From contig DYKO01000006.1 of the NCBI GenBank assembly GCA_020722565.1, forward strand, positions 1 to 64,000: a stretch of 64,000 bases of DNA, written 5' to 3'. A model generated the notes under the pieces. That model was not told the origin of the DNA. It made no database searches and was given only the letters and a program-made list of their open reading frames with translations. The translations under genes and the position numbers were made by a program. This document shows, piece after piece, positions 9,847 to 28,586 of the stretch. How positions within the stretch are numbered: the stretch's first letter is position 1; the number at the start of each line of letters is the position of its first letter. This stretch comes from Rikenella microfusus. GTDB taxonomy: Bacteria > Bacteroidota > Bacteroidia > Bacteroidales > Tenuifilaceae.

Positions 9847-9891
9847 AGTTCAAATTTTCAAGTTAAATATAAAAACTCAAAGAGTAAAACA

Positions 9892-11076: not shown

Positions 11077-11122
11077 GGTGTCAAATTTTAATTTAGATTA
11101 CTCAAAATGAACAACCGAAAAA

Positions 11123-11662
11123 TTAATCGTTCGGATACATTTTGGATTTCATATACTCTTTAGGATCGTTGGTTTTGTTCCTTGGTCTTGGGAAAAATGT
11201 CTCCTCGGCATATTTTTTCGTATCAAACTCTCTTCGCATGGGAGGGATATTGTCCCAGCCTTCAAGAACGAAGTTTTCGTCAACGCCAGGGCTGCCAGGG
11301 AAGTCAATGCCGTACATTTCTTTGAGTTCACGTTGGTAGGTAGCTATCTGCTTCCAGAGGTGATGAGCCGATGTCATCGTAGGGTTATTCCTATCGATAA
11401 AGCAACGTACAGCAATATCAATTTTGAGAGTGGGGTTGTTAAGGAAGTAGGTGAGTTGGAATGCGTTATCTTCGATCCAGTCGACACATGATAGCAGAAC
11501 GAAATGGCTAAAACCCTCATAATCAAGCAGATTGGTGATTAGATTAAGGACATGCTCCTTGCTAACGGTTACAAATGCAAGATTTGGCCGCTGATACACT
11601 ATGTCCTTAATATCAAAAGTTTTACCCAATTTATCTATTAAACTTTTCATTTTTTGTTTCAA
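11123..11662 (-). CDS. NuoC/MbxK-like 30-kDa subunit
   Basis: A 179-residue protein matching the complex I 30-kDa (NuoC) family. It has an N-terminal alpha-beta domain and the family signature in REL-KEMYGIDFPGSP, followed by LEGWDNIPPMRREF. In complex I and in Mbh/Mbx this subunit bridges the NuoB-like and NuoD-like proteins of the peripheral arm and carries no cofactor. It lies between the NuoB-like and NuoD-like genes, in the order seen in mbx clusters (J, K, L). Confidence 0.85.
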   Translation of the reverse strand: MKQKMKSLIDKLGKTFDIKDIVYQRPNLAFVTVSKEHVLNLITNLLDYEGFSHFVLLSCVDWIEDNAFQLTYFLNNPTLKIDIAVRCFIDRNNPTMTSAHHLWKQIATYQRELKEMYGIDFPGSPGVDENFVLEGWDNIPPMRREFDTKKYAEETFFPRPRNKTNDPKEYMKSKMYPND

Positions 11663-11673
11663 TTTAGAGTAAA

Positions 11674-12348
11674 TTACCAGTTGTAATCAGGCATATTCCA
11701 GTCCTTGATTATCTTTTTTTGGTTGGCCTTGTACCAATCAAAGTTTTTAGCGTAAAGGTTTGCACCTTCGCCCTTTCCTTCGCGTATTAGTTCTTTCAAT
11801 TTGTTAAAACCAGCAATTATGGCCTCTGGCCTGGGCATGCAACCAGCAATGTATACATCAACGGGAAGGTAATAATCCAAGCGGTTAATTGTATTATAGC
11901 TATCGTAATACATTCCGCCGTTTACGGTACAACTTCCAAGCGCAAGCACGTATTTAGGGTTTTGCATTTGCTCGTAGCTTCTGATAACTCTTTTTAAGGT
12001 TTTAACGGATAGGTAACCCGAGATGATAAAAACGTTCGATTGTCGAGGGGTTGGCCTCATCTGTATGCCAAATCGGAACACATCGAACCGGGGGGTAATA
12101 AGTGGAGGAATTTCTATACTTCCGCATCCTGTACCAAAACCAAGCACCCATAATGATTTGGAGCGTGCCCAGTTGAGGAATTTCTCAACTGCAGGAATTA
12201 TATTGGGTTCATGGACCTTTGGTCGAGCATCGCAAAAGTAGTCATTCATAGGGTCAACTATGAATGACTTACCATCAGGCCCTATTACCTCACGTTTAGC
12301 ATAATGTGGGTTATCGAATTTCTTTTTATTTTTATCGTCAACCATCAT
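11674..12348 (-). CDS. NuoB/MbxJ-like 20-kDa Fe-S subunit
   Basis: A 224-residue homologue of the subunit that carries the terminal (N2 or proximal) 4Fe-4S cluster. Likely ligands are C75 (GTGCGSIE), C140 (LGSCTVNGG) and C170 (AGCMPRPEA). In complex I the first motif is CC, but here the second position is G76, so only three of the four usual cysteines are visible in place; C39 could be an alternative. I chose the ATG at 12348. The upstream ATG at 12420 would run back into the NuoH-like gene, whose stop is at 12363, and would add unconserved sequence. Confidence 0.85.
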   Translation of the reverse strand: MMVDDKNKKKFDNPHYAKREVIGPDGKSFIVDPMNDYFCDARPKVHEPNIIPAVEKFLNWARSKSLWVLGFGTGCGSIEIPPLITPRFDVFRFGIQMRPTPRQSNVFIISGYLSVKTLKRVIRSYEQMQNPKYVLALGSCTVNGGMYYDSYNTINRLDYYLPVDVYIAGCMPRPEAIIAGFNKLKELIREGKGEGANLYAKNFDWYKANQKKIIKDWNMPDYNW

Positions 12349-12362
12349 TTCAAGTTTTATTA

Positions 12363-13271
12363 TTACATAAACATTACAACGGCAATTACACCTAGAACCA
12401 ATGGTACTTTTAGGAACCAAGTAACCGATTGTTCGATTCTAAATCGTGGAAATACCATTCCAACAAATACAGACCAAAAGTAAATTAGGAAGGTTTTAAC
12501 TATAAATTCAATCCAGTTGGTAGCTCCTCCAAAAAAGAGGTTCATGAACAGTGCTGCTTCAACCACATGAAGTATTGCACCATTGGATTGGAGCACACCT
12601 AGGAAAGTAGAATGATATTCAGTTGGGGGTCCGATGGGTATTTCATTGGGAGCCATTACCAGGTTAAATGGAGAGTGTCCCAATGTTCCCAATGCGGCTA
12701 GCATACCAGCAGCAGTGGCAAAGGGATTGGTCCACATGCTCCAATGCATAAAACCGCCTTGCTGAGCCCTAACAATATCAGCTAACGAAAGGGTATCGTA
12801 CTGTATTGCTAGTGAAATAATTGCTAATGTAAGGGGAACCTCAATGGTTGTAAATTGCGATAGTCCACGGCTTATACCAATGGCTGAATAGGGATGTCCA
12901 CCTTCGCCTGCACCCAGAGCCATCCCCAGCATGCCAAAGAACTGAAAGTACATGATTAAAACCAGGTCACCTTGAAATGAGTAATTTAGCCAATGGTCAC
13001 CTGTGATTATCATTGGCATGAATAGGAAGATACCAACTCCACCGCTTAACCTAAAAATGGGGCCTAGGTAAAACATTAATCCGTGGGTAATTTGTGAGCG
13101 TATGGAGTAGTTTTTAAACAAATCAATCCAAGGTTGATGCCAAGGAATACCAATTCGGCGAGCCACACGCGCGCCAATTTTACGCATGAAGGCATTCATT
13201 AATAGCCCCCAGTTGAGAACTATTAGTAGTCCCAGTAGCGTAAATCCCAGCCTTTTTATGTCAAAATCCAT
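12363..13271 (-). CDS. NuoH/MbxM-like membrane anchor subunit
   Basis: A 302-residue integral membrane protein of the NuoH/MbhM family, which joins the peripheral arm to the ion-pumping arm. It has about eight hydrophobic segments, the early RRIGIPWHQPWIDLFK loop next to the peripheral arm, and the acidic EVPLTLAIISL and GPPTEYHS loops typical of the family. It sits between the fused antiporter-like subunit and the NuoB-like subunit (15-21 bases on each side), as in mbx gene order. Confidence 0.9.
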   Translation of the reverse strand: MDFDIKRLGFTLLGLLIVLNWGLLMNAFMRKIGARVARRIGIPWHQPWIDLFKNYSIRSQITHGLMFYLGPIFRLSGGVGIFLFMPMIITGDHWLNYSFQGDLVLIMYFQFFGMLGMALGAGEGGHPYSAIGISRGLSQFTTIEVPLTLAIISLAIQYDTLSLADIVRAQQGGFMHWSMWTNPFATAAGMLAALGTLGHSPFNLVMAPNEIPIGPPTEYHSTFLGVLQSNGAILHVVEAALFMNLFFGGATNWIEFIVKTFLIYFWSVFVGMVFPRFRIEQSVTWFLKVPLVLGVIAVVMFM

Positions 13272-13292
13272 TTGCTTGATACTTTTATAATA

Positions 13293-16200
13293 TTAGAAAA
13301 CCAAAAAGTAGATAATTACAAAGTAGCCTAAAATATAAATAAGGTATCGTTGCCCATTTCCGTTATAGATTAATCGGGTGAAATGGGCTAATGAGAGAAT
13401 CCAATCGCTCATCATATTCCAAAACTCAGTAATCTTAGGAGCAACTATCCATCCTAATGCTTTATTATATCCAGCATACATATTGTAGGATTGATGGGTG
13501 GTTTCAGGGCGTTGAGGAGCTTCGGCAGCGTAAACAATGTTAAATTGTTTAACTTTTTGCGCTTTCCGGCTTAAAACTATAAGCCAAATTAAAATTGTTG
13601 TGAACATGATGCCTATAGTTATCATAACACCATTCCCATTCCAGTACCCATAGGTTGAGGTGGCCAAGCCTCCATTCCAGGCAAGGGCTCCATTAGGATA
13701 CCATTGCGAAATCATTTTCCCTAAGGGTTGCAATAGCCATTCGGGTTTAGCCGAAATAATCATAATTCCGATTATCAGAATATATATTGGAATAGCAAAC
13801 CATAAGGAAATATCGGTAACATGACGAAGATTGTCTTTAAGTTGCCCTAAGAATATCGAGTAAATGAGTTTATAAAGATACAGGAAGGCAACTATACCCG
13901 AAAAGAAAACAATAATACCCTGGAAGTACCAATGCTTATCGATAACAGCATTGTAGAATAACCACTTTCCGCCAAATCCTGAAAGCGGTGGCACACCCGA
14001 AAGGGCAATAATACCAATCAGTACAGCAATGAATGCTAAGGGCATATTTTTAATTAGACCACCCATTTTATACATGCTGTGGGTTCCAACCTTTAACACA
14101 ACTGCACCAATGGTTAAGAATAGGATTGCTTTGTAAAGGAAGTGATTTATGGAGTAGTACATTGCTGTTAACCAACCTAAATGCGACATCATGGCCAGGG
14201 CAAAAAGGATATATCCGAGCTGTGCGATACTGGAGTAGGCTAATAGACGCTTAGCATCCTCCTGGAATGCGGCAGCCATATTCCCCACCAATGCGGTTAA
14301 GGCCCCTAACCATCCCAGGTAGTATGCAATGGTAGCGATTTGAGGATTGTTTCCCATTGCAATCATTAGAAGAAGTAGTCCAAAAACTCCAGCCTTCAGC
14401 AGTATTGCCGATACCATCGGCGAAACATCACTCTCAGCTTCAGCATGTGCTCCAGGTAGCCATATATGTAACCCTAGTGATGCCGTTTTTGTCATGAATC
14501 CAATTGCTAAAAGAATGAAAACTAACGGCACCATGTTGGATAATTGCGATAGCGAGGCAATTAGCATGCTTTGGGTTTCGGCGAATGTAATTCCAAAACC
14601 TGCCAGTATTGCGTAGGCCCCTCCAATGGAGAACAGCATGTAACTTAAGGCATGGTTTATCGATTTTTTACCCCGGATAATCAGGAAGTAAGAACCTGCG
14701 GTCATCAGCTCCCAGCCAAAGAAAAATTCTAGGGTTGTGCTAGCTTGGATTATGTATGCTAATCCGGCATACATTATGAGTGCTACCGGATAAAACCCCC
14801 TACGTTTCCCTTTATATGCGTAACCTGCAATTAGGGTAAGAATTCCACCTATGAGGAAAATCCCCATAAATATGAATCTTAGCATATCGGTGTAGTAAAG
14901 CTCAGGTAGTGTTAGCCATGAGTAAAAGGCTAACCCTGCAATCGATAGGGTATTTTTAATGTAAATGGGTAGCTCATCGATTAGGTAAATGAAGGCTATG
15001 AATATGAGCGGCCAGTAGCTCAGGCCTGAAAGCCCTTCCATTTCAGCACTGGCAACAACACCTGTTGCAATGAGTAGAATTCCCCATGTTAAGGTCGGCA
15101 AAAACTTGCTTATGTTAAGTTTGAATTCGGGGAGGTCCGAAAAATCGAGCTTAATTGCATAACCCAACCAGCGGAAAAGGTAAATTCCTTCAATGAATGA
15201 ACCTATGAGTATTGAGGTTACTAACATGTATTGATTTCCCGCTGAGAGTTCCATTATTAATGACCATTTTCCAAAAAAAGAGGGGAGTGGTGGAAATCCA
15301 ATCAGCGAAAAAATAAATACCCCGAAAAGAACCAGTAGGATTGGTTTTTTTCGCAGCATTGCCCAATCTTTTATGTCATCCCGGTTTATAATTCCCGAAA
15401 GCCAAAATAATCCTGCCTTTGCAAAGAAGTGTGAAATTAGAATGGTTAGGGCTATAAAAATAAATTTATCGCCTAGTAGTTGCTGCATACCTATTGTGGC
15501 TGAAAGCAGCCCTAATTGTCCTATTGATGAGTAGCCCAGTAATCGATTTGGGTTAGTTTGGGAAAGTCCAAGTAGGTTGCTGGCTACAAACGAAACTAGC
15601 CCAAGGGTTATAAGAATATCTGAGATGAAAGGGGCAACAGGAATCAGTTTATAAAGAACGAATAAACTGGTTGTTCCTGCAATGCCCGAAACCAGAGCAC
15701 CAATTCCCGGATGTGCACTTTCGTATACATCCAGAGCCCAACCATTAGCAGGGAAAGGTTTGAGTTCCAAAATTACTGCGAGTATAACCATAAAAACAGC
15801 AACGGCACCACCCTTAACATACTGCAATGATGCTTGGCTAATAAAATCAATATTTAGCGTCCCGCTAAAATAATAGGCAAAAACAGTTCCCAATAGAAGG
15901 AAGCTAGATATTAAACCGGTTGCAATTACGTACTTGAATCCAGATGGAATAGATTTACGATTGGGGTCTAGAATAATTAAGCCTGCGAGTGCAATGCTTT
16001 GTATCTCACTAAAAACAAATAGGTTAAATAGGTCACGAGTCATTACCATTACATTCAACCCTAAAATAAAGACCAGGAAAATTAGCATCATGTTTTTCCC
16101 TGTTTTTAGTAGCTCTTTAGTAAGGTAAATTGCTCCCAAAAATCCTGCTACGTTAATAAGCAGAGTAAATGTTGCTTCGGCTAACCCCATTTGAAGGTTA

Positions 16201-16412
16201 ATGGCAAAGGGTGGCTTAAAACCTCCGGTGAAAATTTGTAAGGGTTCTACTGAAGAGTTCAAAAAATGAATAAACCACCCAGCCGATATGGCAACCATGC
16301 CCGCTAGGGTTGATAATACTAATCCTAGCGATAGCTTATCTCTCTTTCCTAAAAATCCTAGCGCAAAGGCAACTCCAAGCGCTATGGAAACTATATGTAT
16401 TGGATTTACCAT
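13293..16412 (-). CDS. fused double antiporter-like subunit (MbxH plus MbxH')
   Basis: A 1039-residue polytopic protein built of two MrpD/NuoL-M-N-type units in tandem. The first (about 1-460) has the channel glutamate E136 (FVFSEIQS) and lysine K218 (LELKPFPANGW). The second (about 500-1039) has E568 (FFGWELMT), K642 and the histidines of LGLHIWLPGAHAE. Both units therefore keep the acid-base pair needed for ion translocation. In Pyrococcus-type mbx clusters the equivalent H and H' subunits are separate genes. It overlaps the MrpC-like gene by seven bases and is followed by the NuoH-like gene. Confidence 0.88.
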   Translation of the reverse strand: MVNPIHIVSIALGVAFALGFLGKRDKLSLGLVLSTLAGMVAISAGWFIHFLNSSVEPLQIFTGGFKPPFAINLQMGLAEATFTLLINVAGFLGAIYLTKELLKTGKNMMLIFLVFILGLNVMVMTRDLFNLFVFSEIQSIALAGLIILDPNRKSIPSGFKYVIATGLISSFLLLGTVFAYYFSGTLNIDFISQASLQYVKGGAVAVFMVILAVILELKPFPANGWALDVYESAHPGIGALVSGIAGTTSLFVLYKLIPVAPFISDILITLGLVSFVASNLLGLSQTNPNRLLGYSSIGQLGLLSATIGMQQLLGDKFIFIALTILISHFFAKAGLFWLSGIINRDDIKDWAMLRKKPILLVLFGVFIFSLIGFPPLPSFFGKWSLIMELSAGNQYMLVTSILIGSFIEGIYLFRWLGYAIKLDFSDLPEFKLNISKFLPTLTWGILLIATGVVASAEMEGLSGLSYWPLIFIAFIYLIDELPIYIKNTLSIAGLAFYSWLTLPELYYTDMLRFIFMGIFLIGGILTLIAGYAYKGKRRGFYPVALIMYAGLAYIIQASTTLEFFFGWELMTAGSYFLIIRGKKSINHALSYMLFSIGGAYAILAGFGITFAETQSMLIASLSQLSNMVPLVFILLAIGFMTKTASLGLHIWLPGAHAEAESDVSPMVSAILLKAGVFGLLLLMIAMGNNPQIATIAYYLGWLGALTALVGNMAAAFQEDAKRLLAYSSIAQLGYILFALAMMSHLGWLTAMYYSINHFLYKAILFLTIGAVVLKVGTHSMYKMGGLIKNMPLAFIAVLIGIIALSGVPPLSGFGGKWLFYNAVIDKHWYFQGIIVFFSGIVAFLYLYKLIYSIFLGQLKDNLRHVTDISLWFAIPIYILIIGIMIISAKPEWLLQPLGKMISQWYPNGALAWNGGLATSTYGYWNGNGVMITIGIMFTTILIWLIVLSRKAQKVKQFNIVYAAEAPQRPETTHQSYNMYAGYNKALGWIVAPKITEFWNMMSDWILSLAHFTRLIYNGNGQRYLIYILGYFVIIYFLVF

Positions 16413-16780
16413 TTCAATTCGTTATATGAGTTAATTTCAAGCGATTTCTTTTCCCTAAACATTCTCATAACATACGCAAGCATAAGTGCGGTAACTCCCA
16501 GTCCAATTACAATAGATGTGAGTACAAGTGCCTGAGGCACAGGATCGGCAATTTTACTAGCCGCATCCGATACCTCTACTGCTTTATCAAGAATTGGGGC
16601 GGTGCTATTTTTTACATACGATAGGCTAACTATCACGATGTTAAGACCTGTATCGAAAAGGCTAAAGCCAATTACTATTTTAAGCAAGTTTTTTTGGCTT
16701 ATTATGCCCCAAACGCCAATAACCATAAGCAAAAAGCCGGTTAACATGGCAATGAATTCAACGGATAAATATTGGGTCAT
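16406..16780 (-). CDS. MrpC/NuoK-like subunit
   Basis: A 124-residue membrane protein with three hydrophobic segments (about 8-27, 32-54 and 83-106), matching MrpC/MnhC and MbhG. The loop between segments two and three is longer than in NuoK. The second segment carries GFSLFDTGLNIVIVS, equivalent to the region that holds a channel acid in NuoK. It overlaps the next gene by seven bases and lies two bases from the MrpB-like gene, so translation is probably coupled. Confidence 0.88.
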   Translation of the reverse strand: MTQYLSVEFIAMLTGFLLMVIGVWGIISQKNLLKIVIGFSLFDTGLNIVIVSLSYVKNSTAPILDKAVEVSDAASKIADPVPQALVLTSIVIGLGVTALMLAYVMRMFREKKSLEINSYNELKW

Positions 16781-16782
16781 GG

Positions 16783-17484
16783 TTAAACTTCGTTTTGGTT
16801 TTCCTTAAGTGAATTAAGTATGCTTGTAAGTTCTGAGCCTACTTTTATACCAATAAAAACATATATAATAGGTATGGCACCAGCACTCAATATGTTCCCT
16901 AATTTGCCTAAAGGTAAAAAGGCATTGTTTAAAAATCCGCTTGCCAGAATAAGCCCCAATACCCCCATTAATACGAATCCGATACCCGATATGGCTTCAA
17001 GTATCGAAAGCAGTTTATGGTTGAATTCGGAGGTAGGACGGGCAAGTATTATCATCATTACACCAGTGGCAATAACTGCCCCACCTTGGAATCCACCGCC
17101 TGGGGTTAGGTGACCATTAATAAAAATGTAAGTCCCCAGCATGAAAATGGTTGGAACCAGAAGCGTTGATGCTGTTTCCAGTATTTCACTTGGTTTTCTG
17201 AGACTTGAGGTCCTATTATTGTTGGAATTTAAAATTTTCAGGAAGAAACCAACAATTGCGGCTGCTATAAAGAGAATAGTTACTTCTCCAAGTGTATCAA
17301 ATCCGCGGTAGGTTACCACAACAGCGGTAACAAGATTAGCTGCACCAACTTCTGTAGGTCCGTTCTCGGCATAGTAACGTGCCAGAGGGTTAAGTTCAGA
17401 ACTACCGCTAAAGTTGATGATTAGGTTGCTGATTACAACAACAAAACCTGCTAGTAGTAGTAAAAGAATTCCTTTCTTAATCAT
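16783..17484 (-). CDS. MbhE plus MrpB (MnhB) domain protein
   Basis: A 233-residue membrane protein. The N-terminal part (1-85), with the conserved VVVTYRGFDTLGE loop, matches the MbhE-type unit. The C-terminal part (100-230) is an MnhB domain with GHLTPGGGFQGG, the family hallmark. In Mrp antiporters the first piece lies at the end of MrpA and the second is MrpB; here they are one chain. The start overlaps the preceding DUF4040 gene by eight bases. Confidence 0.88.
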   Translation of the reverse strand: MIKKGILLLLLAGFVVVISNLIINFSGSSELNPLARYYAENGPTEVGAANLVTAVVVTYRGFDTLGEVTILFIAAAIVGFFLKILNSNNNRTSSLRKPSEILETASTLLVPTIFMLGTYIFINGHLTPGGGFQGGAVIATGVMMIILARPTSEFNHKLLSILEAISGIGFVLMGVLGLILASGFLNNAFLPLGKLGNILSAGAIPIIYVFIGIKVGSELTSILNSLKENQNEV

Positions 17485-17719
17485 TGGATTGACGGATTTT
17501 ATTTAGCACGTAAAAAAAGATAATGGTGGATAAACCGCTGCCTATTGATGCTTCGGTCAGCGCAACATCTGGGGCCGCTAGTAAAAGGTAGAGCACCGAT
17601 GCAAAAAGCCCTACAGCGCCGCTAGCAATAATGGCAACCTTAATGTTCTTGTGGTAAATGGCCGCAAATGCCAGAATAAGAATGACCAAACCTAGAAATA
17701 TTGCAAGTATTATGCTCAT
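17477..17719 (-). CDS. MbhD-like DUF4040 membrane subunit
   Basis: An 80-residue membrane protein with three hydrophobic segments and the DUF4040 hallmark APDVALTEASIGSGLS, equivalent to MbhD and to part of the C-terminal end of MrpA. The acidic residues in that loop lie on the proposed ion path. It is two bases from the MrpG-like gene and overlaps the MrpB-like gene by eight bases. Confidence 0.88.
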   Translation of the reverse strand: MSIILAIFLGLVILILAFAAIYHKNIKVAIIASGAVGLFASVLYLLLAAPDVALTEASIGSGLSTIIFFYVLNKIRQSND

Positions 17720-17721
17720 GG

Positions 17722-18063
17722 CTATTCCTCCCCGGGTTTATTTGATTTATCAACTAACAGGTCGGCAACGGTTTTGTCGGTCATCTTTATACCCCTAAAA
17801 TGGGCTGCGCGTGAAATAACATTCGATGAAACCGGATTGGTTATTAGCACAAAGAATATGATAACCAGAAGTTTCCATATCCATGCTTCGTTTATAATGG
17901 CTAAACCGAATAAGCTAAGAATTGTTCCCAAAGTTGAGGCTTTTGTACCTGCTTGAATTCGGTTGAATAGGTCGGGCATTCGAACTATGCCAAGTCCTCC
18001 TAAAAAGATGAAGATGGATCCCAAAAGGGTTACCAAGGCTCCAATTATTTCAAGTGTTTCCAT
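17722..18063 (-). CDS. MrpG-like subunit (MnhG/MbhC)
   Basis: A 113-residue membrane protein with three hydrophobic segments. It carries the MnhG signature GIVRMPDLFNRIQAGTKAST, followed by GTILSL. It is an accessory subunit of the Mrp module. Its start overlaps the stop of the MrpF-like gene by one base. Confidence 0.88.
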   Translation of the reverse strand: METLEIIGALVTLLGSIFIFLGGLGIVRMPDLFNRIQAGTKASTLGTILSLFGLAIINEAWIWKLLVIIFFVLITNPVSSNVISRAAHFRGIKMTDKTVADLLVDKSNKPGEE

Positions 18064-18323
18064 TACAACCCCTTTTCTATATATCTACCAATAGCTACAA
18101 CGCTCAAAAAGCTGAGCAAACCATAAACCAATGCCACATCCAGATAAATGATGCGACCGGCAAAGTATGCAATTAGCCCAATTACTGATATTGAAGTAAC
18201 CGTCATCACATCAAATGCCACGGTGCGGTCGGTAATATCGGGCCCTTTTATAAATCGGAACAACGACAGCAGTATGCCCAATACCATGAACACTCCTGCA
18301 ACAATTAAAATGGTATTAACCAT
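18063..18323 (-). CDS. MrpF-like subunit (MnhF/MbhB)
   Basis: An 86-residue membrane protein with three hydrophobic segments and the MrpF hallmark RFIKGPDITDRTVAFD. The aspartates of that motif are considered important for ion transport in Mrp systems. It overlaps the upstream MrpE-like gene by eight bases. Confidence 0.88.
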   Translation of the reverse strand: MVNTILIVAGVFMVLGILLSLFRFIKGPDITDRTVAFDVMTVTSISVIGLIAYFAGRIIYLDVALVYGLLSFLSVVAIGRYIEKGL

Positions 18324-18810
18324 AAATCACCTCCAATATTTTTTCAAATTTTCCCATAATCTCTTGACTGGCGATTTCGGGATCGAGCGTTTTTACATCT
18401 ATCCAGTGAATGTAAAATTCATCATCCTTAATGTCAATGGTGAGCGTTCCCGGAGTCAGTGTAATTGAATTGGCCAGAATCATTCGCCCCATGGGCGATT
18501 TGAGTTTTGTTTTAACCTTAACTATCCCTGGGTTTATGGGAAGTTTCGGGTTTATAACCCTAAGGGCTACATCTACATTCGATTTAACAATCTCCCATGA
18601 TAACACGATGAGATAGTGTAACGAGTAAATGAAAACCTTTGGGGTTAACCGTAACTTCCCAAAAACATTGCTATTCTTCCCAAAAATAAGGGAGAGGCCA
18701 CCTGCAATTACTATTCCAAGCAAAAGGCTTGTTAGCTCAAATGTGCCTGTGAGTAGCAACCAAATCAGGAATAGCAACACAAATAGGTTTGTTACATTTC
18801 TGATATTCAT
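18316..18810 (-). CDS. MrpE-like subunit (MnhE/MbhA), first gene of the operon
   Basis: A 164-residue protein with two N-terminal hydrophobic segments and the MnhE core (SITLTPGTLTIDI, then FYIHWIDV). It is the first gene of the 12-gene minus-strand Mrp/Mbx-type operon that runs to 7033 with overlaps or gaps under 50 bases. The promoter must lie in 18811-19012, shared with the divergent Crp/Fnr gene. Confidence 0.88.
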   Translation of the reverse strand: MNIRNVTNLFVLLFLIWLLLTGTFELTSLLLGIVIAGGLSLIFGKNSNVFGKLRLTPKVFIYSLHYLIVLSWEIVKSNVDVALRVINPKLPINPGIVKVKTKLKSPMGRMILANSITLTPGTLTIDIKDDEFYIHWIDVKTLDPEIASQEIMGKFEKILEVIYG

Positions 18811-20278: not shown

Positions 20279-21352
20279 TTAGTGTTGACCTGTTTTTGCC
20301 AGTTTGGCTATTTTATCGAAGTACATGGCAAACGAACGGTAAAGGAAGTGCATCCATTTTCCAAAGGGTACGATGATAAGTGCCCATTGCGCCAGCACGG
20401 TAATATGTATAAGATAAGCCCAAAAGTAGCGTTCAAGCAGGTTGAAATCTAAAAATAAACGAACCGTAAAGGCTGAGAGCCCCATCAAAAACAACCATAT
20501 CACAAAAAACCAGTCGGTAAAATGAGAAAAGGTGGTTTTGGTAGAATCCTTTTTTACTCGGCGGAGAATAAAATCGAAGGTTACTACAAAAATTATGGCG
20601 CTAAATAGGTAGCCCATGGATATAACAACGAGGGATTTTGTTCCAAACCAGTTCAAAAATACAGTAGTAAAGAGCAAAGAAAGATATCCTATCACCAGAA
20701 TAAAATGTTCAAACCACCAAACCTTGTTATCTTTTTCATCGTTACATGCTAAAGTTCGTTTTTGGGTAAACATGTGAGTGAACAAATCTTTCAACGCTAT
20801 CCAGTAATGCTTTATATTAGCATTAATGTTTTTTGATAGTAGAGTAAAACGCCACATTCTTATTAGGTTTGGCAAAAGAATAATCAAAAATACCCCGCCA
20901 ATGGCAATCATTTCAAAGTAGTGGCCCAAATGCATAAAACTTTCCTTGGAGAATGTTCCAGATAGAAATATTCCTACAACTGCAATAATAACCAGTAAGA
21001 ACGCAATAATGTAAGCGGTTAGATTTTGGTAAAAAATGCTGCTCAACCCCGTCCAGTCGTAACGTGAAATTAGGTATCGGCGCAACGACATCATTAGTTC
21101 TCCTGGTTTTGCCTCCTGTGGGCAATATGTTGTGCATTCGCCACAGTAGTAGCAGAGCCAAGGTTTTAACGATGCTTTAATATCTTCGGACTGGCCTGTT
21201 ACGCTTAAACGGATCATTTCTCTGGGGAATGAATCCATTTCAGTTGATAGTGCACAAACGGCAGTGCATGTACCGCAATTGTAACATGCATTAAAATCTA
21301 TTGCTCCGTATTTTTTTAGTTTTTTACCAAATGTTAAATCTACCTTAGCCAT
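20279..21352 (-). CDS. QmoC-like quinone-interacting subunit (HdrC plus membrane domain)
   Basis: A 357-residue protein. Residues 20-80 form an HdrC-like domain with two 4Fe-4S motifs (C23, C26, C29, C33 and C67, C70, C73, C77). Residues 105-350 are a membrane domain with about six hydrophobic segments and several histidines that could bind haem b (HLGHYFEM, FEHFILV, LIHITVLAQW). This HdrC-HdrE/NarI fusion is the architecture of QmoC, which exchanges electrons with menaquinone. It is the last gene of its operon. No CCG cysteine-rich domain is present, so heterodisulfide-type chemistry is not expected in this subunit. Confidence 0.85.
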   Translation of the reverse strand: MAKVDLTFGKKLKKYGAIDFNACYNCGTCTAVCALSTEMDSFPREMIRLSVTGQSEDIKASLKPWLCYYCGECTTYCPQEAKPGELMMSLRRYLISRYDWTGLSSIFYQNLTAYIIAFLLVIIAVVGIFLSGTFSKESFMHLGHYFEMIAIGGVFLIILLPNLIRMWRFTLLSKNINANIKHYWIALKDLFTHMFTQKRTLACNDEKDNKVWWFEHFILVIGYLSLLFTTVFLNWFGTKSLVVISMGYLFSAIIFVVTFDFILRRVKKDSTKTTFSHFTDWFFVIWLFLMGLSAFTVRLFLDFNLLERYFWAYLIHITVLAQWALIIVPFGKWMHFLYRSFAMYFDKIAKLAKTGQH

Positions 21353-21624
21353 TACTTTTTGATTTTATAAAAATAAAATTCATCCATATCGTCCATGTGG
21401 GTTGGTACCAGCTTATTGAACTTAACCAGGGTCATCACATAATATACTGCATCGGGATTACTTAGTCCGGTTTTTTCAGCTATTTGTGGGATGGTCAGTT
21501 CTTCTTCGCTGAAGGCATCCAATATGCGTTTTCGAACAGCATTAAACTGTTTGAGTTGTTCTTTTGCTTGTTCAGAAACTTTAAAGGTTTCGCGTTTTAT
21601 TTTGAACGTTTCCTTGTTCCCCAT
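21352..21624 (-). CDS. small winged-helix protein in the Qmo-like operon
   Basis: A 90-residue protein with a predicted helix-turn-helix (ELTIPQIAEKTGLSNPDAVYY) and a short wing. It overlaps the QmoC-like gene by one base, so it is translated with the redox subunits. It might be a local regulator or a structural protein of the complex. Small winged-helix proteins of this kind accompany some Hdr/Qmo clusters, but no function is known to me. Confidence 0.7.
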   Translation of the reverse strand: MGNKETFKIKRETFKVSEQAKEQLKQFNAVRKRILDAFSEEELTIPQIAEKTGLSNPDAVYYVMTLVKFNKLVPTHMDDMDEFYFYKIKK

Positions 21625-21642
21625 TTTAGTATAGTTAAACCA

Positions 21643-23574
21643 TTACAATTCGTTAGCTAAAACATCAATCATGCTCGCAATTTCGATGTCGGAAAAAGTT
21701 TTAAGTTGGATGGCATTGGTGGGGCAAACTGGCAGGCACATTCCACAACCTTTGCAAACTGTTTCGTTTACTTGGGCTACACCCTGTTCATTCTTAAAAA
21801 TTGCATCAAAAGGGCATGCTTTGGTGCATTCATCGCACCATTTGCATAAATCGGGGGTAACCTCAGCCACCTCGGGTTTAACCATCAACTTATCCTTTCC
21901 AACAAAAGAATATGTTTTAATGGCAGCCGACAGGGCGGAATTAATAGATTCAACAACGTTTTTAGGTCCCTGACAAGCTCCAGCAATTGTAATACCATCG
22001 ATAACAGTTTCCACTGGGCGCAATTTCATGTGTATTTCATTGAAAAAGTTATCGCGGCCCCGAGGCAATTTAAGGATATCGGAAATATTGTTGTTGGAGC
22101 GAGGTACCATTCCGGTAACCAGAACAACTATGTCTGCTTCAACTTCCAGTTCTTTTCGATTAGTTAATATATCATTGATTTTAACAGTGGTTTTGTTATT
22201 TTTATGTTCCACTCTGCATGGGTCGTCTTCGTATGACTGGAAAAATACATGTCCACTTTTTGATGCGTTGTGATAAAGTTGTTCCTGTTTTCCGTAAGTA
22301 CGAATACCCCTTGTGAAATGAAAGTGATTTAGTTCTGGGAATTTATCATTTGATTTTAATGCTGTATTTATAGTAGCAGTGCAGCAGTAGCGGGAACAGT
22401 ACTTGTTATTACCGTCCACTTGGCGGCTACCAACACAGTAGATATAGGCAACATTTTTAACAGGTTTATCATGCCATTGCAGTTTGCCTGGTTCGGAAAA
22501 AGCGAGTAAGCGTTTAAATTGCGATAGGGTAATCACATTGTCGATAACATTATAGCCAAATTCGCCTTCGTTGGGGGTATAGGGGTCAAAACCAGTGGCC
22601 ACAAGAATTGAACCCACTTTTAATTCGAGGAATTCCTCTTTCATGTTGAGATCAATCTTATCGCATATTTCGGTACATTTTCCGCATCGTGTACACGAGT
22701 TCATATCGATAACAGCGGTTTGCGGATACTCAGCGGGGAAATTGTGGTATATGGCCCTTCGTTTGGTAATCCCAAAGTTAAACTCGTCAGGCACTTCAAC
22801 AGGGCATGCGTTTATGGCTTTTTTCAAAATTTCTTTATCAATACATGTCTCTTTTACATAGCGAGGGCTGAGCTTTACCTTGGCAGTAAAATTACCAATG
22901 CTCCCTTTGCAATCGACAAGTTGAGCTCCTGTGTACAAAGCAATATTTTTGTTTGAAACAATTTCAGTATATAAGCGGCTTACCAGCTCTTTGCCGGTTT
23001 CATTGGTTAGGCAAAGTACATCCCATTGAGCTATTCTACCACCAATAAAAGGTTCGCGTTCTATTAGGTAAACCTTTGTACCCATTTTTGATAGGGAGAT
23101 GGCTGCTTTCATACCGGCAACGCCTGCTCCAATAACTAGAACGGCTTGGGTGGTATCAACTTCAAGGGGTTCAATAGCCTCCGATAAGCGGACTTTTGCT
23201 ATGGCAGCTTTTACTATCTGGATGGCTTTTTGTGTAGCACCTGCTTTATTATCGCTATGTGGCCACGATACCTGTTCGCGTATATTGGCGTGCACATAGT
23301 TGTACTTATTTAAGCCGGCACGTTCAACAACTGCTTTAAATGTTATTTCATGAAGTTTAGGAGAACAAGAAGCTACCACAACCCCATCGAGTTGGTTCTC
23401 TTTAATGTCCTGCACCATTCCCTTTTGGTTGGAATCGGCACATGCAAACATGGTAGTTTTTGCTATGAGCACCCCGTCGTTCTGAGCAACCGCCTCGCGC
23501 ACCTTTTCTACATCTACATAATCGGAAATATTACCACCGCAATGGCATATATAAACTCCAATTCTTTGTTTCAT
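21643..23574 (-). CDS. HdrA/QmoB-like FAD and Fe-S subunit
   Basis: A 643-residue flavoprotein of the HdrA family. The N-terminus has GVYICHCGGNISD and a CSPKLHE loop. An FAD-binding GAGVAGMKAA lies near 145 and a first 4Fe-4S motif near 285 (CTRCGKCTEIC). YCVGSRQVDGNNKYCSRYCC follows at about 380. Two C-terminal 4Fe-4S motifs are CKWCDECTKACP and CKGCGMCLPVCP. It lacks the MvhD-like extension of Desulfovibrio QmoB; that domain is a separate gene at 24915. The role is likely electron distribution, possibly bifurcation, in the Qmo-like complex. Confidence 0.88.
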   Translation of the reverse strand: MKQRIGVYICHCGGNISDYVDVEKVREAVAQNDGVLIAKTTMFACADSNQKGMVQDIKENQLDGVVVASCSPKLHEITFKAVVERAGLNKYNYVHANIREQVSWPHSDNKAGATQKAIQIVKAAIAKVRLSEAIEPLEVDTTQAVLVIGAGVAGMKAAISLSKMGTKVYLIEREPFIGGRIAQWDVLCLTNETGKELVSRLYTEIVSNKNIALYTGAQLVDCKGSIGNFTAKVKLSPRYVKETCIDKEILKKAINACPVEVPDEFNFGITKRRAIYHNFPAEYPQTAVIDMNSCTRCGKCTEICDKIDLNMKEEFLELKVGSILVATGFDPYTPNEGEFGYNVIDNVITLSQFKRLLAFSEPGKLQWHDKPVKNVAYIYCVGSRQVDGNNKYCSRYCCTATINTALKSNDKFPELNHFHFTRGIRTYGKQEQLYHNASKSGHVFFQSYEDDPCRVEHKNNKTTVKINDILTNRKELEVEADIVVLVTGMVPRSNNNISDILKLPRGRDNFFNEIHMKLRPVETVIDGITIAGACQGPKNVVESINSALSAAIKTYSFVGKDKLMVKPEVAEVTPDLCKWCDECTKACPFDAIFKNEQGVAQVNETVCKGCGMCLPVCPTNAIQLKTFSDIEIASMIDVLANEL

Positions 23575-23613
23575 TCACTTAAAGTTTTTATAAAATACCA
23601 AGTTGCATTTACT

Positions 23614-24915
23614 CTATAAATCAATTGAGGTTTGCTTTACGTAGCGGATAGCCTCCATGGCCGCCGAACCTGCACTTAAAATGCTATCGGGAATATCCAT
23701 GGGTCCACTGGTTGTACCTGCAAGGAATACCCCTTCGATGCTGCTGAGCGATGGGGTGTAAAATAAATCCTTTTGATGCGCAAATGAGTATTCGTCTTTT
23801 TCCCAACCCTGAATTAATTTTTTGGGTTCATCATTGGCTAACACTCCAACAGAGAGAACAACTAAATCGTGTTTTTTTTCGATAACCTTACCCTGATTAA
23901 TATCTTCGTACCAGAGAATCAGGTTGCCGTTGTCGGTTTCGGTTATTTTACCAACCTTTCCTTTTACAAAATTTACTCCCATTCCTTTAGCTTGCTCGTA
24001 AAACTCTTCGAAGCCTTTTCCAAAGGAACGAATATTGATGTAGTAAATGGTTACATCGGCCATGGGTAATGCTCCCATTAATAGCTGTGCCTGTTTAATG
24101 GAATACATGCAGCATATTTGTGAACAGATGGGGTTACCCACTGATAAATCGCGGGAACCGGCACAAAGAACATAGGCAATATTACAGGGTACTTGGCCAT
24201 CGCCTGGGCGAAGTACATGATTGTACGGACGCGTTGGCGCCAGCAAGCGTTCCATTTGAAGGGCAGTTATAACATTTTTTGAGTTGCCATAGCTAAAACG
24301 AGGAATTTTCAAAGGGTCAAAAAGATTAAATCCTGTTGCCATGATAACGGTTTTGGCAATAATTTCATACTCCTTATCCTCTTGTGTAAAATCGATACAA
24401 CCTGTAGGGCATGCCTTTTCGCAAGCACCACATAGCACACAATTGTCCATGTCAATAGAGGCGACTCTGGGACTTGCAATATTAAAAGGTATATAAGCGG
24501 CTTTTCGTCCCACCAAATCGTACTGGTATTGGTCCGGCACAACAACAGGACAGGCTTCTTCGCATAACTGGCAACCTGTACAGTCGCTTATGTTCACATA
24601 GCGTGCTTTTTCTTTTATTCGAGCTTTAAAATAGTTTTTATCCTGCTTTTCAATTTGCAGGATATTGGTATTGGTGAGAATAGTTATGTTAGGATGACGA
24701 GCCACTTCGGATATTTTAGGAGTGGTTATGCAGGCAGAGCAATCGAGGGTGGGGAACACCTTGCTGAGCATTATCATTTTTCCACCAAGCGTTAAATCTT
24801 TTTCTACCAGCAAAACCTTAAGGTTATTATTGGCAAGATTTAAAGCAGATTCAATTCCGGCAATTCCACCGCCCACAACCAAAGCATCGTAAAGTTTTTT
24901 ACCAGCGAATGGCAT
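23614..24915 (-). CDS. QmoA-like HdrA-family flavoprotein
   Basis: A 433-residue HdrA-family protein, shorter than its neighbour and without the N- and C-terminal extensions, as in QmoA. It has an N-terminal FAD site (VVGGGIAGIESAL), LDCSACITTPK, two 4Fe-4S motifs (CTGCQLCEEACP and CVLCGACEKACP) and CAGSRD...CSQICC. QmoA and QmoB form the cytoplasmic part of the quinone-interacting complex that serves APS reductase in sulfate reducers. No apr or dsrAB genes lie in this window, so the partner differs or is elsewhere. It overlaps the MvhD-like gene by one base. Confidence 0.85.
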   Translation of the reverse strand: MPFAGKKLYDALVVGGGIAGIESALNLANNNLKVLLVEKDLTLGGKMIMLSKVFPTLDCSACITTPKISEVARHPNITILTNTNILQIEKQDKNYFKARIKEKARYVNISDCTGCQLCEEACPVVVPDQYQYDLVGRKAAYIPFNIASPRVASIDMDNCVLCGACEKACPTGCIDFTQEDKEYEIIAKTVIMATGFNLFDPLKIPRFSYGNSKNVITALQMERLLAPTRPYNHVLRPGDGQVPCNIAYVLCAGSRDLSVGNPICSQICCMYSIKQAQLLMGALPMADVTIYYINIRSFGKGFEEFYEQAKGMGVNFVKGKVGKITETDNGNLILWYEDINQGKVIEKKHDLVVLSVGVLANDEPKKLIQGWEKDEYSFAHQKDLFYTPSLSSIEGVFLAGTTSGPMDIPDSILSAGSAAMEAIRYVKQTSIDL

Positions 24916-25319
24916 TATTCCTTAGTTTTAAGATTAAGTAAGGTGTTACTAAAATTGTTAATCTGTTTGATAAAAGGTTCGCTACACACTGAGCAAATGG
25001 CAGCCATTTTCAAACGTATGGGGTCAATATTTCTCTCCTTCATCAGCTGGTGGGTTTTTTTAACAATTTCCCCTGTTTTTTCGGTGCATGATTCTCCATA
25101 AGGACAATCAGTGCCATCGGCTGCTATAAATACTCCATCAAAGTCTTTTTCCAAAGCCCGCAATATCCAGCGGGGCTTGACGGCGCTAGAGCATGGAACA
25201 GAAATTGTATAAACTTTAGAGGAATAGTGTAATTTTAGTAATCCTGCCATATCAATGGCAGGATCCGAAATCTTTACCGTAGAAAACACTAAAATACGTG
25301 GGTTTTCGGAGGTACTCAT
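24915..25319 (-). CDS. MvhD/FlpD-like 2Fe-2S electron-transfer protein
   Basis: A 134-residue protein of the MvhD/FlpD family. Cysteines lie in VPCSSAVKPRWILRAL, in DGTDCPYGESC and in AAICSVCSEPF, in the positions expected for the 2Fe-2S cluster of MvhD. These proteins pass electrons into HdrA. It overlaps the QmoA-like gene by one base and starts three bases after the tusA stop. Its presence suggests that the Hdr/Qmo module takes electrons from, or gives them to, a soluble donor. Confidence 0.8.
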   Translation of the reverse strand: MSTSENPRILVFSTVKISDPAIDMAGLLKLHYSSKVYTISVPCSSAVKPRWILRALEKDFDGVFIAADGTDCPYGESCTEKTGEIVKKTHQLMKERNIDPIRLKMAAICSVCSEPFIKQINNFSNTLLNLKTKE

Positions 25320-25322
25320 AGT

Positions 25323-25574
25323 TTAACCCTTTTTTAGAAAGATGCGGAAGTATCCATTCTCCTCTATGGTTCCAAGATATTCATGCCCCTGTTTATTGCA
25401 CCACTTAGGGATATCTACTTTGGTTCCCTCGTCTGAAGATAATACCTCCATAATTTCACCCGATGCAATAGTCCCTATAACTTTTTTTGCCTCTAACAAA
25501 GGCCCTGGGCAAGATGTTCCCCGTGCATCAACGGTTTTATTTACATTAAGATTTTTAAGTTCTGAAGCATTCAT
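25323..25574 (-). CDS. TusA-family sulfur carrier protein
   Basis: An 83-residue protein with the TusA/SirA fold signature. The catalytic cysteine is C22 in SCPGPLLEAKK, followed by a DEGTKVDIPKWCNKQGHE segment. TusA proteins carry a persulfide on this cysteine. Linkage to Hdr-like genes and a DsrE-like gene recalls sulfur-oxidising Hdr (sHdr) and Dsr systems, in which TusA delivers sulfane sulfur. It is the second gene of the operon, 23 bases after the DsrE-like gene. Confidence 0.9.
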   Translation of the reverse strand: MNASELKNLNVNKTVDARGTSCPGPLLEAKKVIGTIASGEIMEVLSSDEGTKVDIPKWCNKQGHEYLGTIEENGYFRIFLKKG

Positions 25575-25597
25575 GATTTTGAGATTTTTAGTTTTTG

Positions 25598-26023
25598 TTA
25601 AATGAATAGGTGTACATCAGCTTCTTGAGCAGCAGTAATATATTCGCTGATACCCACAATGTCATCGGCAAATTCAACAAAATCTTCAATTTTGTAACCA
25701 CCCCAAATTTTACCTGCCAAGCCACAAATGTGAAATTTAACATCGCCCATCTCTTTGGCTTCTTTAAAGAATTCATGCCATTCTTTCACATTAAGATCCT
25801 TACACGATTTCAAAAATTCATCGCGAAGATTGGCGTTTTCGGCCATGTTTAACTTATCCTTGTTTTTTGCAATATTTTTAAGCATTGCTCTTGCTCCCTG
25901 TAGGAGTACATAAACGTCAATGCTCATATCATTAGCCACAGCCCCACTAATGATTACACCAGCAGCAGTAAGCTTATCAATACTACCGCTATACAATGCA
26001 AGGCACATTTTTGAGTTTTTCAT
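25598..26023 (-). CDS. DsrE-family sulfur-transfer protein, first gene of the Qmo/TusA operon
   Basis: A 141-residue protein of the DsrE/DsrF-like fold. It has an N-terminal CLALYSGSIDKLTAA segment and FHICGLAGKIWGG, which holds the cysteine likely to carry sulfur. DsrE-like proteins pass sulfur to and from TusA. I chose the ATG at 26023, since an upstream start at 26047 would only add AT-rich sequence. The gene opens the minus-strand operon; its promoter region, 26024-26163, is shared with the divergent Crp/Fnr gene. Confidence 0.85.
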   Translation of the reverse strand: MKNSKMCLALYSGSIDKLTAAGVIISGAVANDMSIDVYVLLQGARAMLKNIAKNKDKLNMAENANLRDEFLKSCKDLNVKEWHEFFKEAKEMGDVKFHICGLAGKIWGGYKIEDFVEFADDIVGISEYITAAQEADVHLFI

Positions 26024-26103
26024 AGTTAATAAATTTTTTCTTAACAAAAATATATCCCAGACGTAAAATATTCATTATTAAAGCTGTGAGATAATACATG
26101 GGG

Positions 26104-26126
26104 AAATGTGAAAATAATAACATATT
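26104..26126. promoter_or_regulatory. AAATGTGA and ATAACATATT motifs in the second crp/operon divergent region
   Basis: AAATGTGA at 26104-26111 and ATAACATATT at 26117-26126 repeat the pair seen upstream of the Mbx-type operon and first Crp/Fnr gene (18882-18910), with a wider gap. A TAATTTG box follows at 26131-26137. The shared motif suggests common control by one or both Crp paralogues. Confidence 0.5.
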
Positions 26127-26163
26127 TTTGTAATTTGAATCACACATTTTGATAATTGATAAT

Positions 26164-26838
26164 ATGGACATTTGTAAGTTTTGCCATCATAAGTCGAAAG
26201 CTTCTGAAAAGTTAAATGATTCAGAGCTATCCCTACAGTCAGAAAATTGTGCTGAATATCGTTTTAAAAAAGGCGATATAATTATTCGGCAGGGGGCCTT
26301 ATCGTCTAATGTAATTTTTTTACGAGAGGGGTTGGTAAAATTGCATATGACTGGTCCTCTGCATGAACAAATTATTAAGATAACCTATGGCCCTGCATAT
26401 CTGGGATTACCTAGCACCTTTGGCGATAAGTATAATCATTATTCCGTAACAGCCATTGAGGAATCGCTGGTTTGCTTCATAGATTTGAGCACTTTCAGAA
26501 CATTCGTTAAGAATAATCCCGATTTCACCTACCAATTAATGATTGAGCTATGTGTTAATGAACTCGATTCCTATCATCGCTGCGTGAGCCGTACGCAAAA
26601 GCAGGTAAGCGGTGGCTTAGCTGAGAATCTACTCTTTTTTGCCGATACCATTTACCATTCCAACAAATTTGAACTGCCCTTGAACCGAGAGGAAATTGGC
26701 AATCTGATTGATGCATCAAGAGAAAGTGTTAGCCGAACATTAAGCAATTTCCATGATGAGGGTATTATAAAAATCGAGAATAAAAAAATTACTATTATCG
26801 ATAAAGAACGATTACGGCTTATCAGTCAGTATGGTTAA
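26164..26838 (+). CDS. Crp/Fnr-family regulator divergent from the Qmo/TusA operon
   Basis: A 224-residue regulator paralogous to the one at 19013. It has a beta-roll effector domain (KKGDIIIRQGALSSN, residues about 25-125) and a C-terminal winged helix with LNREEIGNLIDASRESVSRTL. The N-terminus has C4 and C7 (CKFC), matching C8 and C11 of the paralogue; the third cysteine is not kept. I prefer the ATG at 26164 over a TTG at 26149 because it aligns with the paralogue. The effector is unknown; sulfur species or redox state would fit the neighbourhood. Confidence 0.9.
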   Translation: MDICKFCHHKSKASEKLNDSELSLQSENCAEYRFKKGDIIIRQGALSSNVIFLREGLVKLHMTGPLHEQIIKITYGPAYLGLPSTFGDKYNHYSVTAIEESLVCFIDLSTFRTFVKNNPDFTYQLMIELCVNELDSYHRCVSRTQKQVSGGLAENLLFFADTIYHSNKFELPLNREEIGNLIDASRESVSRTLSNFHDEGIIKIENKKITIIDKERLRLISQYG

Positions 26839-28098: not shown

Positions 28099-28497
28099 TT
28101 AAGAGTTAATTAGAACGATATCGTCCGAATTGCAATACCTGCAATGTTTTGCAGGTTTCATGGTTATCATTACCTCTTTGCACTTTTCGCATTTGTACCA
28201 GTAATCGTCCGTAACATAATCGCCACCCTTTATAAGGATTACCTTCCCTTCGATAAAGGCCTTGGCAATTGTTCTATGTGCCTTATTATAAAGTCGTGTA
28301 AATGTAGGGCGCGATATATTCATCTTTACGGCGGCTTCATCTTGGAGTAACCCTTCATAGTCCACCAATCTAATGGCCTCGAGTTCCTCATAGAGCAGAA
28401 TAACCGATTGCAAATCCCTTGCCGGGATTCCAAAAGGCTTATAGCCCTCCATTCTTGGAGGTACTGCTACTCTACGTTGTCGTTTTCGGTTGGGCAT
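28099..28497 (-). CDS. DUF134 helix-turn-helix protein
   Basis: A 132-residue DUF134 protein. Residues 1-95 contain PRMEGYKPFGIP, LYEELEAIRLVDYEGLLQDE and the HTH region MNISRPTFTRLYNKAHRTIAKA. A C-terminal zinc-ribbon-like part has CEKCK and CRYC. DUF134 proteins are DNA-binding by fold and accompany NifX-like and DUF5320 genes in anaerobes. I chose the ATG at 28497, with the family start MPNRKR. A longer paralogue is at 42146. Confidence 0.85.
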   Translation of the reverse strand: MPNRKRQRRVAVPPRMEGYKPFGIPARDLQSVILLYEELEAIRLVDYEGLLQDEAAVKMNISRPTFTRLYNKAHRTIAKAFIEGKVILIKGGDYVTDDYWYKCEKCKEVMITMKPAKHCRYCNSDDIVLINS

Positions 28498-28523
28498 TAG
28501 TAAATTTAGCAAATAAACAGCGT

Positions 28524-28555
28524 GGTGGTTTTAGGGAATAACCCCATAAACCACC
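28524..28555 (-). terminator. hairpin between DUF5320 and DUF134 genes
   Basis: GGTGGTTT and AAACCACC pair over 8 bp, and an inner GGG/CCC can extend the stem. On the minus strand it is followed by T-rich DNA. It may end or attenuate transcription of the DUF5320 gene before the DUF134 gene. Confidence 0.5.
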
Positions 28556-28586
28556 CGCCCGTTATTATCGGTGTCAAAAATAGGAA

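Follow-up and report, generated by a model that had tools for sequence, protein, structure and literature searches.

The type I Qmo (quinone-interacting membrane-bound oxidoreductase) complex QmoABC of sulfate reducers and Chlorobi has two HdrA-type flavoproteins, a subunit joining HdrC to a membrane domain, and an MvhD domain within the set. Type II Qmo, with HdrA-like QmoA and QmoB that stand apart from type I and a membrane QmoC, occurs with or without Dsr and Apr, and its role is given as unknown (PMC10504309). In the sHdr system of sulfur oxidation, genes for HdrA-like flavoproteins lie beside tusA and dsrE. Here a seven-gene operon is described from a 64,000-nucleotide stretch of Rikenella microfusus DNA (assembly GCA_020722565.1, contig DYKO01000006.1, positions 1 to 64,000; referred to as the window), which encodes a Qmo-like set of subunits together with TusA, a DsrE-family protein, a free MvhD and a winged-helix protein. 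The operon is a conserved module, and very probably joins sulfane sulfur to redox reactions. That it is a quinone-linked sulfane-sulfur reductase, in which an HdrA-like (type II-like) Qmo is tied to menaquinone, is put forward at even odds.

Genes of the operon

The seven genes run on the minus strand from position 26023 down to 20279, with spacing that varies from 1-base overlaps to a 39-base gap:

25598..26023, minus strand: DsrE-family sulfur carrier, 141 residues from the ATG (translation may instead begin at a TTG at 26047)
25323..25574, minus strand: TusA sulfur carrier with a CPGP motif (Pfam TusA, 84.8 bits)
24915..25319, minus strand: MvhD/FlpD-like subunit with rearranged cysteines (Pfam FlpD, 91.6 bits)
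23614..24915, minus strand: QmoA-like, HdrA-type FAD protein with two ferredoxin-type cysteine sets (HdrA2, 465.5 bits, cut-off 1100)
21643..23574, minus strand: QmoB-like, HdrA-type protein with a C-terminal ferredoxin domain and no MvhD domain (HdrA2, 591.1 bits, cut-off 1100)
21352..21624, minus strand: winged-helix protein of 90 residues with an ArsR/SmtB-like fold (helix-turn-helix, below Pfam cut-offs)
20279..21352, minus strand: QmoC-like protein with HdrC-type cysteine sets and a membrane domain with conserved histidines (qmoC model match)

An earlier note, made from the sequence alone, had given these genes, coordinates and order, all of which are confirmed; its reading of the operon as an Hdr-type quinone set preceded by two sulfur carriers at the 5' end is supported, family by family, by profile matches. 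The DsrE-family protein matches Pfam DsrE_2 (DrsE_2) at 33.6 bits against a cut-off of 25 and PDB entry 2qs7 at 70 bits (E 1.8e-18), and it has the active-site-type cysteine of the superfamily. TusA has the family domain with its cysteine in a CPxP motif. The QmoA-like protein is matched in PDB by HdrA (5odc_A, E 6.6e-108). QmoC matches the NCBIfam qmoC model NF038018 at 139 bits, below its 300-bit cut-off, whereas type I QmoC proteins score 368.7 to 509.7 bits.

Conservation of the module

Eighty named loci (L034 to L113) were fetched from a species-genome collection as the best 80 of 249 relatives (353 stretches) in a scan with a three-row MvhD alignment. As MvhD was the search bait, its presence in these loci is given and distant members are under-sampled. 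The loci were surveyed with hidden Markov models, with score cut-offs set within this analysis. In 78 named loci the sequence reaches 1100 bases or more upstream of MvhD, and every one of these has TusA and a DsrE-family gene; the DsrE protein was of the 140-residue type in 58 of them, the 180-residue type in 36 and the 120-residue type in 5, two DsrE-family genes being found in 22. Likewise, each of the 48 named loci that extend 4900 bases or more downstream has QmoA, QmoB, the winged-helix protein and QmoC. Among 17 further loci, three of which repeat named ones (L114, L115 and L116 repeat L034, L067 and L088), TusA and DsrE were present in 16/16 with enough flank, and QmoA, QmoB and QmoC in 13/13. 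The winged-helix gene was missing from seven of these 13, six of the seven being from the window's own family; a 34-residue 'winged helix' in L125, likely a chance match, was counted as present. Because the gene order recurs in every locus with enough flank, the winged helix apart, it is far beyond chance. The winged-helix gene had been singled out in the earlier note as a detail that known systems may lack; it is no oddity of this genome, being a regular part of the module in 48/48 long named loci.

Most of the named loci carry Bacteroidales, Bacteroidetes or a genus within that group as their label; the labels of the other five are Chlorobi/Chlorobiota (L039, L061, L097), Aminicenantes (L078) and Theseobacter (L108). 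Two genomes from another class of the phylum (L159, L160) have the order TusA-MvhD-QmoA-QmoB-winged helix-QmoC-DsrE. Relatives of QmoC are rare class-wide (6/395 genomes at E 1e-15 or better, window genome included). Operon-type MvhD is common among near relatives: 23 of 60 genomes were matched, 20 of them strongly (E 1e-47 or better), while in the remaining three the matches were weak and to MvhD of other types. Some records bear titles (SulCav, Zod_Metabat) that we take to refer to sulfidic caves and Zodletone spring, and thus to anoxic places. Two module loci come from apparent cultures, Labilibaculum sp. K2S (L080) and Bacteroidales bacterium CF (L065), both with the 180-residue DsrE type.

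Copy number and lineage vary among close relatives. A class-mate, G277 (L013, L014), has all seven genes twice on one contig as two divergent copies, the second with a QmoB without the inserted CxxCxxC set. Six genomes of the window's own genus (G395 to G400) were compared, and two module lineages are seen: MvhD identity is 87% in G397 and 62% in G395, G398, G399 and G400, while no MvhD was found in G396. In L125 (from G398) several genes are broken into pieces.

Conserved residues and structural models

The carrier cysteines are invariant: Cys22 of TusA in 109/109 homologues, the cysteine of the window-type (140-residue) DsrE (Cys100 from the ATG) in 67/67, that of the 180-residue type in 48/48 and Cys83 of the 120-residue type in 13/13. 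In QmoA, two cysteine sets of the ferredoxin type and other cysteines of the HdrA type are retained in 89 to 90 of 91 rows; QmoB retains its N-terminal cysteines, a CC pair and two C-terminal sets in 79 to 81 of 82, and an inserted cysteine set (C294 to C304) in 62 to 64 of 82. In QmoC each of eight HdrC-type cysteines is kept in 73/76 rows, and several histidines suited to haems are retained in 63 to 73 of 76.

In MvhD, C43, C72 and C78 are each conserved in 100/102 rows and C109 and C112 in 102/102. Compared with hydrogenase-linked MvhD, an N-terminal CxxC and another cysteine have been lost and C78, C109 and C112 gained. The AlphaFold model (predicted local distance difference test score, pLDDT, 88.9) superposes on 5odc_D, the MvhD subunit from the Hdr complex of a methanogen, with a template modelling score of 0.86, so that on the model the fold is preserved and the cysteines are relocated. 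The earlier note regarded a separate MvhD as possibly new. What stands is that it has its own gene and a rearranged cysteine set; as a part it is not new, since an MvhD domain forms the C-terminus of 6/6 type I QmoB proteins and no MvhD match was found in the window QmoB, and the free MvhD is thus the same part encoded by its own gene.

The winged-helix model (pLDDT 91.0) matches NolR and SmtB in Foldseek (E 1.6e-4 and weaker), and a DDMDE motif is conserved. Sulfane-sensing ArsR repressors of the SqrR/BigR/sHdrR type combine the ArsR fold with conserved cysteines. In the winged-helix protein no cysteine reaches 60% of 70 rows, and a role as a thiol-based sulfane sensor was rejected for this reason. 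Given its place among enzyme genes, it may serve the complex as a subunit or in assembly, and less probably as a repressor.

Relation to type I and type II Qmo

Trees of the three Qmo subunits, a check put forward in the earlier note, place QmoA, QmoB and QmoC apart from the Apr-linked type I proteins (all trees are midpoint-rooted, for drawing only). Module QmoA and module QmoB each form one group (100/100), and type I QmoA pairs with type I QmoB (100/100) away from both. Module QmoA joins one archaeal HdrA row at 89/90, in a tree that is without published type II references. In the QmoC tree all five type I rows group together (100/100), and the window QmoC falls outside them. Module QmoC rows do not form one group; three label changes are needed, which suggests that QmoC has been exchanged. 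Hydrogenase-linked L015 is among these rows, and long branches meet in this tree (L159/L160 with type I).

L015 belongs to another Qmo-like arrangement in Bacteroidia (L015, L017, L020 and L018, the last cut by a contig end), in which QmoA (about 600 residues), QmoC and QmoB adjoin MvhD and hydrogenase-like genes (names by reading). From its genes this arrangement looks like an H2:quinone complex. A QmoA of 916 residues with an inserted GltD-like NAD(P)H domain is encoded in the window's own genus (L128, 9812-12562); QmoA proteins of similar length (916-921 residues, judged by length alone) occur in L122, L129 and L130.

The module shares its subunit plan with type I QmoABC, but it has no apr linkage, its proteins are on separate branches and its QmoC is below the curated cut-off. 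Moreover, MvhD has its own gene, and TusA, DsrE and the winged helix are added. It may belong with type II Qmo; the label 'type II-like' is given by description, the Vulcanisaeta and Ammonifex reference sequences not being in the tree, and the section on type II in PMC10504309 names no sulfur-carrier operon. Unlike sHdr, the operon has a QmoC-like membrane subunit and no HdrB-type (CCG) protein. The DsrEFH complex is not matched, as there is one DsrE-family gene in the window and at most two in the named loci. The YTD cluster of sulfur disproportionators consists of yedE, tusA and dsrE with conserved hypothetical proteins (PMC12998232). Compared on the three named genes, extended loci of the module likewise have YeeE/YedE-type, TusA and DsrE-family genes, but there Qmo genes and rhodaneses accompany the carriers. 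YeeE is absent from the window operon and present in 9 of the 80 named loci.

A literature search, with supplements and most subscription papers outside its coverage, gave no account of a union of TusA, DsrE, free MvhD and winged helix with Qmo. Type II Qmo itself is a known kind.

Sulfur genes in module genomes

The window genome is 99.7% complete. Family searches found in it no ATP sulfurylase (control positive in 5/14 genomes), no NIR_SIR sulfite-reductase domain (control positive in 11/14) and no APS-reductase_C domain (adenosine 5'-phosphosulfate reductase, PF12139, beta subunit AprB). PF12139 was positive in G584, G462, G754 and G299, all four with type I QmoC, and negative in G000, G397, G441, G277, G480 and G661; the matches are small AprB proteins in open frames of 145-169 residues. 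The earlier observation that the window has no apr, sat or dsrAB gene thus extends, for the sat, sulfite-reductase and APS-reductase-beta domains, to the whole genome.

For 46 of the 80 named loci the genome was searched for DsrA, the APS-reductase beta domain and the YeeE family. DsrA was above cut-off in none, with weak matches of 45.3 bits (G800) and 24.2 bits (G831), compared with 509 bits in the Chlorobi-type control G584. The APS-reductase beta domain was found in two (G816 of L083 and G828 of L107) and not in the other 44. In both positive genomes it adjoins an AprA-like gene and separate type I-like qmo genes, so that where both occur the module does not stand in for type I Qmo. The Apr stretches (L188, 6989-14639; L189, 7163-14122) encode an AprB-like protein, an additional protein of 123 residues and an AprA-like protein, together with type I-like qmo genes (qmoABC in L188; qmoAB in L189, with no qmoC seen within the stretch).

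A YeeE-family domain was found in 34 of 48 genomes searched, many matches being half-length (PmpAB-like). A YeeE-type importer lies within nine of the named loci (L050, L058, L062, L077, L079, L081, L083, L086 and L088), eight of which also have a two-domain rhodanese. In L083, a second TusA, YeeE (PF04143, 180.8 bits) and rhodanese proteins with a secreted or lipid-anchored look (by reading) are encoded upstream of DsrE. YeeE and rhodaneses in these extended loci point to sulfane sulfur that enters the cell and is passed to the carriers. Two full-length members of the YeeE family are encoded in the window genome, neither of them near the operon, and no module-like carrier gene was found in their fetched flanks.

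A proposed model of sulfane-sulfur reduction

Gene content and order, their conservation, the invariant carrier cysteines, the lack of detected sulfate and sulfite domains and the separate phylogeny are the basis on which we infer a physical complex, its substrate, direction, donor and quinone. The parts themselves suggest carrier-bound sulfane sulfur, an HdrA-type core and a quinone end. TusA and the DsrE-family protein would carry cytoplasmic sulfane sulfur as a cysteine persulfide or cysteine S-thiosulfonate, and the loaded carriers would dock on the HdrA-like (type II-like) Qmo complex. Its flavin and Fe-S core (QmoA, QmoB, MvhD) would cleave the S-S bond with release of sulfide, and QmoC would link the core to menaquinone. 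Potentials are about -75 mV for menaquinol and -270 mV for sulfane sulfur. Since menaquinol by itself would reduce sulfane sulfur poorly, we predict either that ferredoxin or NAD(P)H serves alongside it as an additional low-potential donor or that membrane potential is spent. The GltD-like NAD(P) domain within QmoA of L128 hints at NAD(P)H as a source of electrons for the core. The earlier note had suggested, with no direction given, that the operon could join sulfane sulfur directly to the quinone pool; conserved linkage makes the tie to the carriers strong, while the direct electron path is what we infer from the subunits.

The reductive direction, judged on its own, has about an even chance. 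Reduction is favoured because the extended loci import sulfur, because the searches gave no onward route to sulfite or sulfate, and because the neighbouring operon of the window belongs to a sulfane-reducing type (membrane-bound sulfane reductase, MBS; see below). Several observations weigh against a sulfane-sulfur reductase. The operon has no HdrB-type S-S-cleaving subunit, and TusA and DsrE are known chiefly from organisms that oxidise sulfur. The direction leans on oxidation genes that were not found, in searches that did not extend to SQR (sulfide:quinone reductase), persulfide dioxygenase, SoeABC, LbpA or molybdopterin polysulfide reductases. The YeeE-family domain is absent from 14/48 genomes, many of the matches elsewhere are half-length, and the YeeE genes of the window genome are not near the operon. 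Finally, MBS-type genes were seen in only two of the 80 named loci (L097 and L100), within limited flanks, so MBS does not define the module.

An HdrB elsewhere in the genome was considered as the missing subunit and rejected: the sole CCG-domain (HdrB-type) protein of the window genome lies within a cluster of electron-transferring-flavoprotein- and acyl-CoA-dehydrogenase-like genes (neighbours named by reading).

Operation in the oxidative direction is rather unlikely. Sulfide or a thiol persulfide would be oxidised onto TusA/DsrE and the electrons passed to menaquinone, making the module a soluble-carrier analogue of SQR. Menaquinone is an easy acceptor for electrons from sulfide. Hdr-like systems with TusA and DsrE are oxidative where described (PMC4175335). 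Against this, no Dsr, Sat or APS-reductase-beta domain was detected for the steps past sulfane sulfur, the importer and rhodaneses of the extended loci bring sulfane sulfur inward, and the adjoining MBS relative is of a reductive type.

It is improbable that TusA and DsrE merely sense or supply sulfur, for regulation or cofactors, while the Qmo-like complex works with some other partner and reduces menaquinone at the expense of NAD(P)H or ferredoxin. The pairing of MvhD- and HdrA-type subunits with hydrogenase-like genes (L015, L017, L020, L018), the GltD-like insert in the sister QmoA and the winged-helix protein within the operon would all fit such a role. The carriers, however, accompany the complex in every named and further locus with enough flank (78/78 and 16/16), and the two DsrE-family genes in 22/78 are more than regulation seems to need.

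A substrate that is specifically thiosulfate, with TusA S-thiosulfonate cleaved reductively to sulfide and sulfite, is given scarcely more than a slim chance. YeeE-family members import thiosulfate (PMC13047784, PMC11582611) and Metallosphaera DsrE3A/TusA bind and transfer thiosulfate groups (PMC4175335), and the window genome has its two YeeE-family genes. Neither of these is near the operon, however, 14 of the 48 genomes have no YeeE-family domain, and no sulfite-reductase domain was found in the window genome. An ordinary Qmo serving APS reductase, to which the Qmo-type subunit set might point, is hardly credible and was rejected on genome content and trees, unless APS reductase lies in the small missing part of the draft genome: the beta domain is absent from the window genome under a search positive in four type I QmoC genomes, it is absent from 44/46 module genomes and accompanied by separate type I qmo in the other two, and the module Qmo is on separate branches.

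The sulfane-sulfur reductase may be taken one step further, as a tentative proposal that we would not yet back: an undescribed respiratory complex, menaquinone-linked, HdrA-based, fed by TusA/DsrE and confurcating a low-potential donor, which would be spread across anaerobic Bacteroidales and act beside or instead of MBS. If so, type II-like Qmo would gain a function, and a large group usually deemed fermenters would gain sulfur respiration. Sulfide production from sulfur by Bacteroidales would then escape the usual markers (dsr, apr, psr/phs). Through its sulfur carriers the module gives type II-like Qmo a concrete, testable substrate, and with the apparent cultures of Labilibaculum sp. K2S and Bacteroidales bacterium CF the question is answerable in living cells.

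Neighbouring MBS-type operon

A second operon lies 1.5 kb from the module in the window and is its neighbour, not a part of it:

8053..18810, minus strand: MBS-type complex with Mrp antiporter subunits, NuoH/B/C/D-like proteins and a NuoI+GltD-like fusion (other subunit names by reading)

Pyrococcus MBS reduces polysulfide; its hallmarks are a three-cysteine proximal cluster, two retained cysteines in the L subunit and loss of the quinone histidine (PMC7684303). The best solved relatives of the NuoD-like and NuoB-like proteins are chains of this complex (6u8y_L, 293.5 bits, next 190.6; 6u8y_J, 222.8 bits, next 137.8). Alignment to 6u8y_J reveals a three-cysteine proximal cluster, with GTGCGSIE and neither CC nor CxxC, and alignment to 6u8y_L reveals that the cysteines of RMCVAE and VCPPEIER are retained and the quinone-binding histidine is absent. 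The neighbouring operon, separate from the module, thus encodes more than an antiporter: its NuoD- and NuoB-like subunits are closest to Pyrococcus MBS and have the MBS cysteine signature. It differs in the likely electron-input subunit, the NuoI+GltD-like fusion (PRK13984 model, 910 bits, cut-off 946). The MBS signature is also present in L097 beside its module, and in L100 the Mrp part adjoins the module.

Regulation

The operon is flanked by Crp/Fnr-family genes, one of them divergent:

26149..26838, plus strand: divergent Crp/Fnr-family regulator (Pfam HTH_Crp_2, cNMP_binding)
26024..26148, no strand: promoter region separating DsrE from the divergent Crp/Fnr gene, with only imperfect palindromes, seen by eye

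A second Crp/Fnr gene lies downstream of the operon (19013-19702). The divergent gene is present in 66 of 85 loci counted, window included. TGTGA-N6-TCACA occurs in 44/66 and TGTTA-N6-TAACA in 24/66 of the homologous regions, while in the shuffled control any palindrome occurred in at most four over 20 shuffles; the shuffles were single-base shuffles of related sequences that include some Crp coding sequence, and the window was entered by hand.

Other genes near the module

The window encodes a CoA-disulfide-reductase/NSR-like flavoprotein (33760-35115) with a VPCGIPY motif, which matches at 226 bits, below the cut-off of 458. It may reduce sulfur with NAD(P)H, and is counted in favour of the sulfane-sulfur reductase reading, as is the reported rise of nsr, mbxA and yeeE with sulfur or thiosulfate in Thermotoga maritima (PMC9431562). 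DUF134-like, NifX-like and two Fe-S ParA-type ATPase genes (names by reading) lie near the module both in the window (28099-42715) and in L123 (1342-6356).

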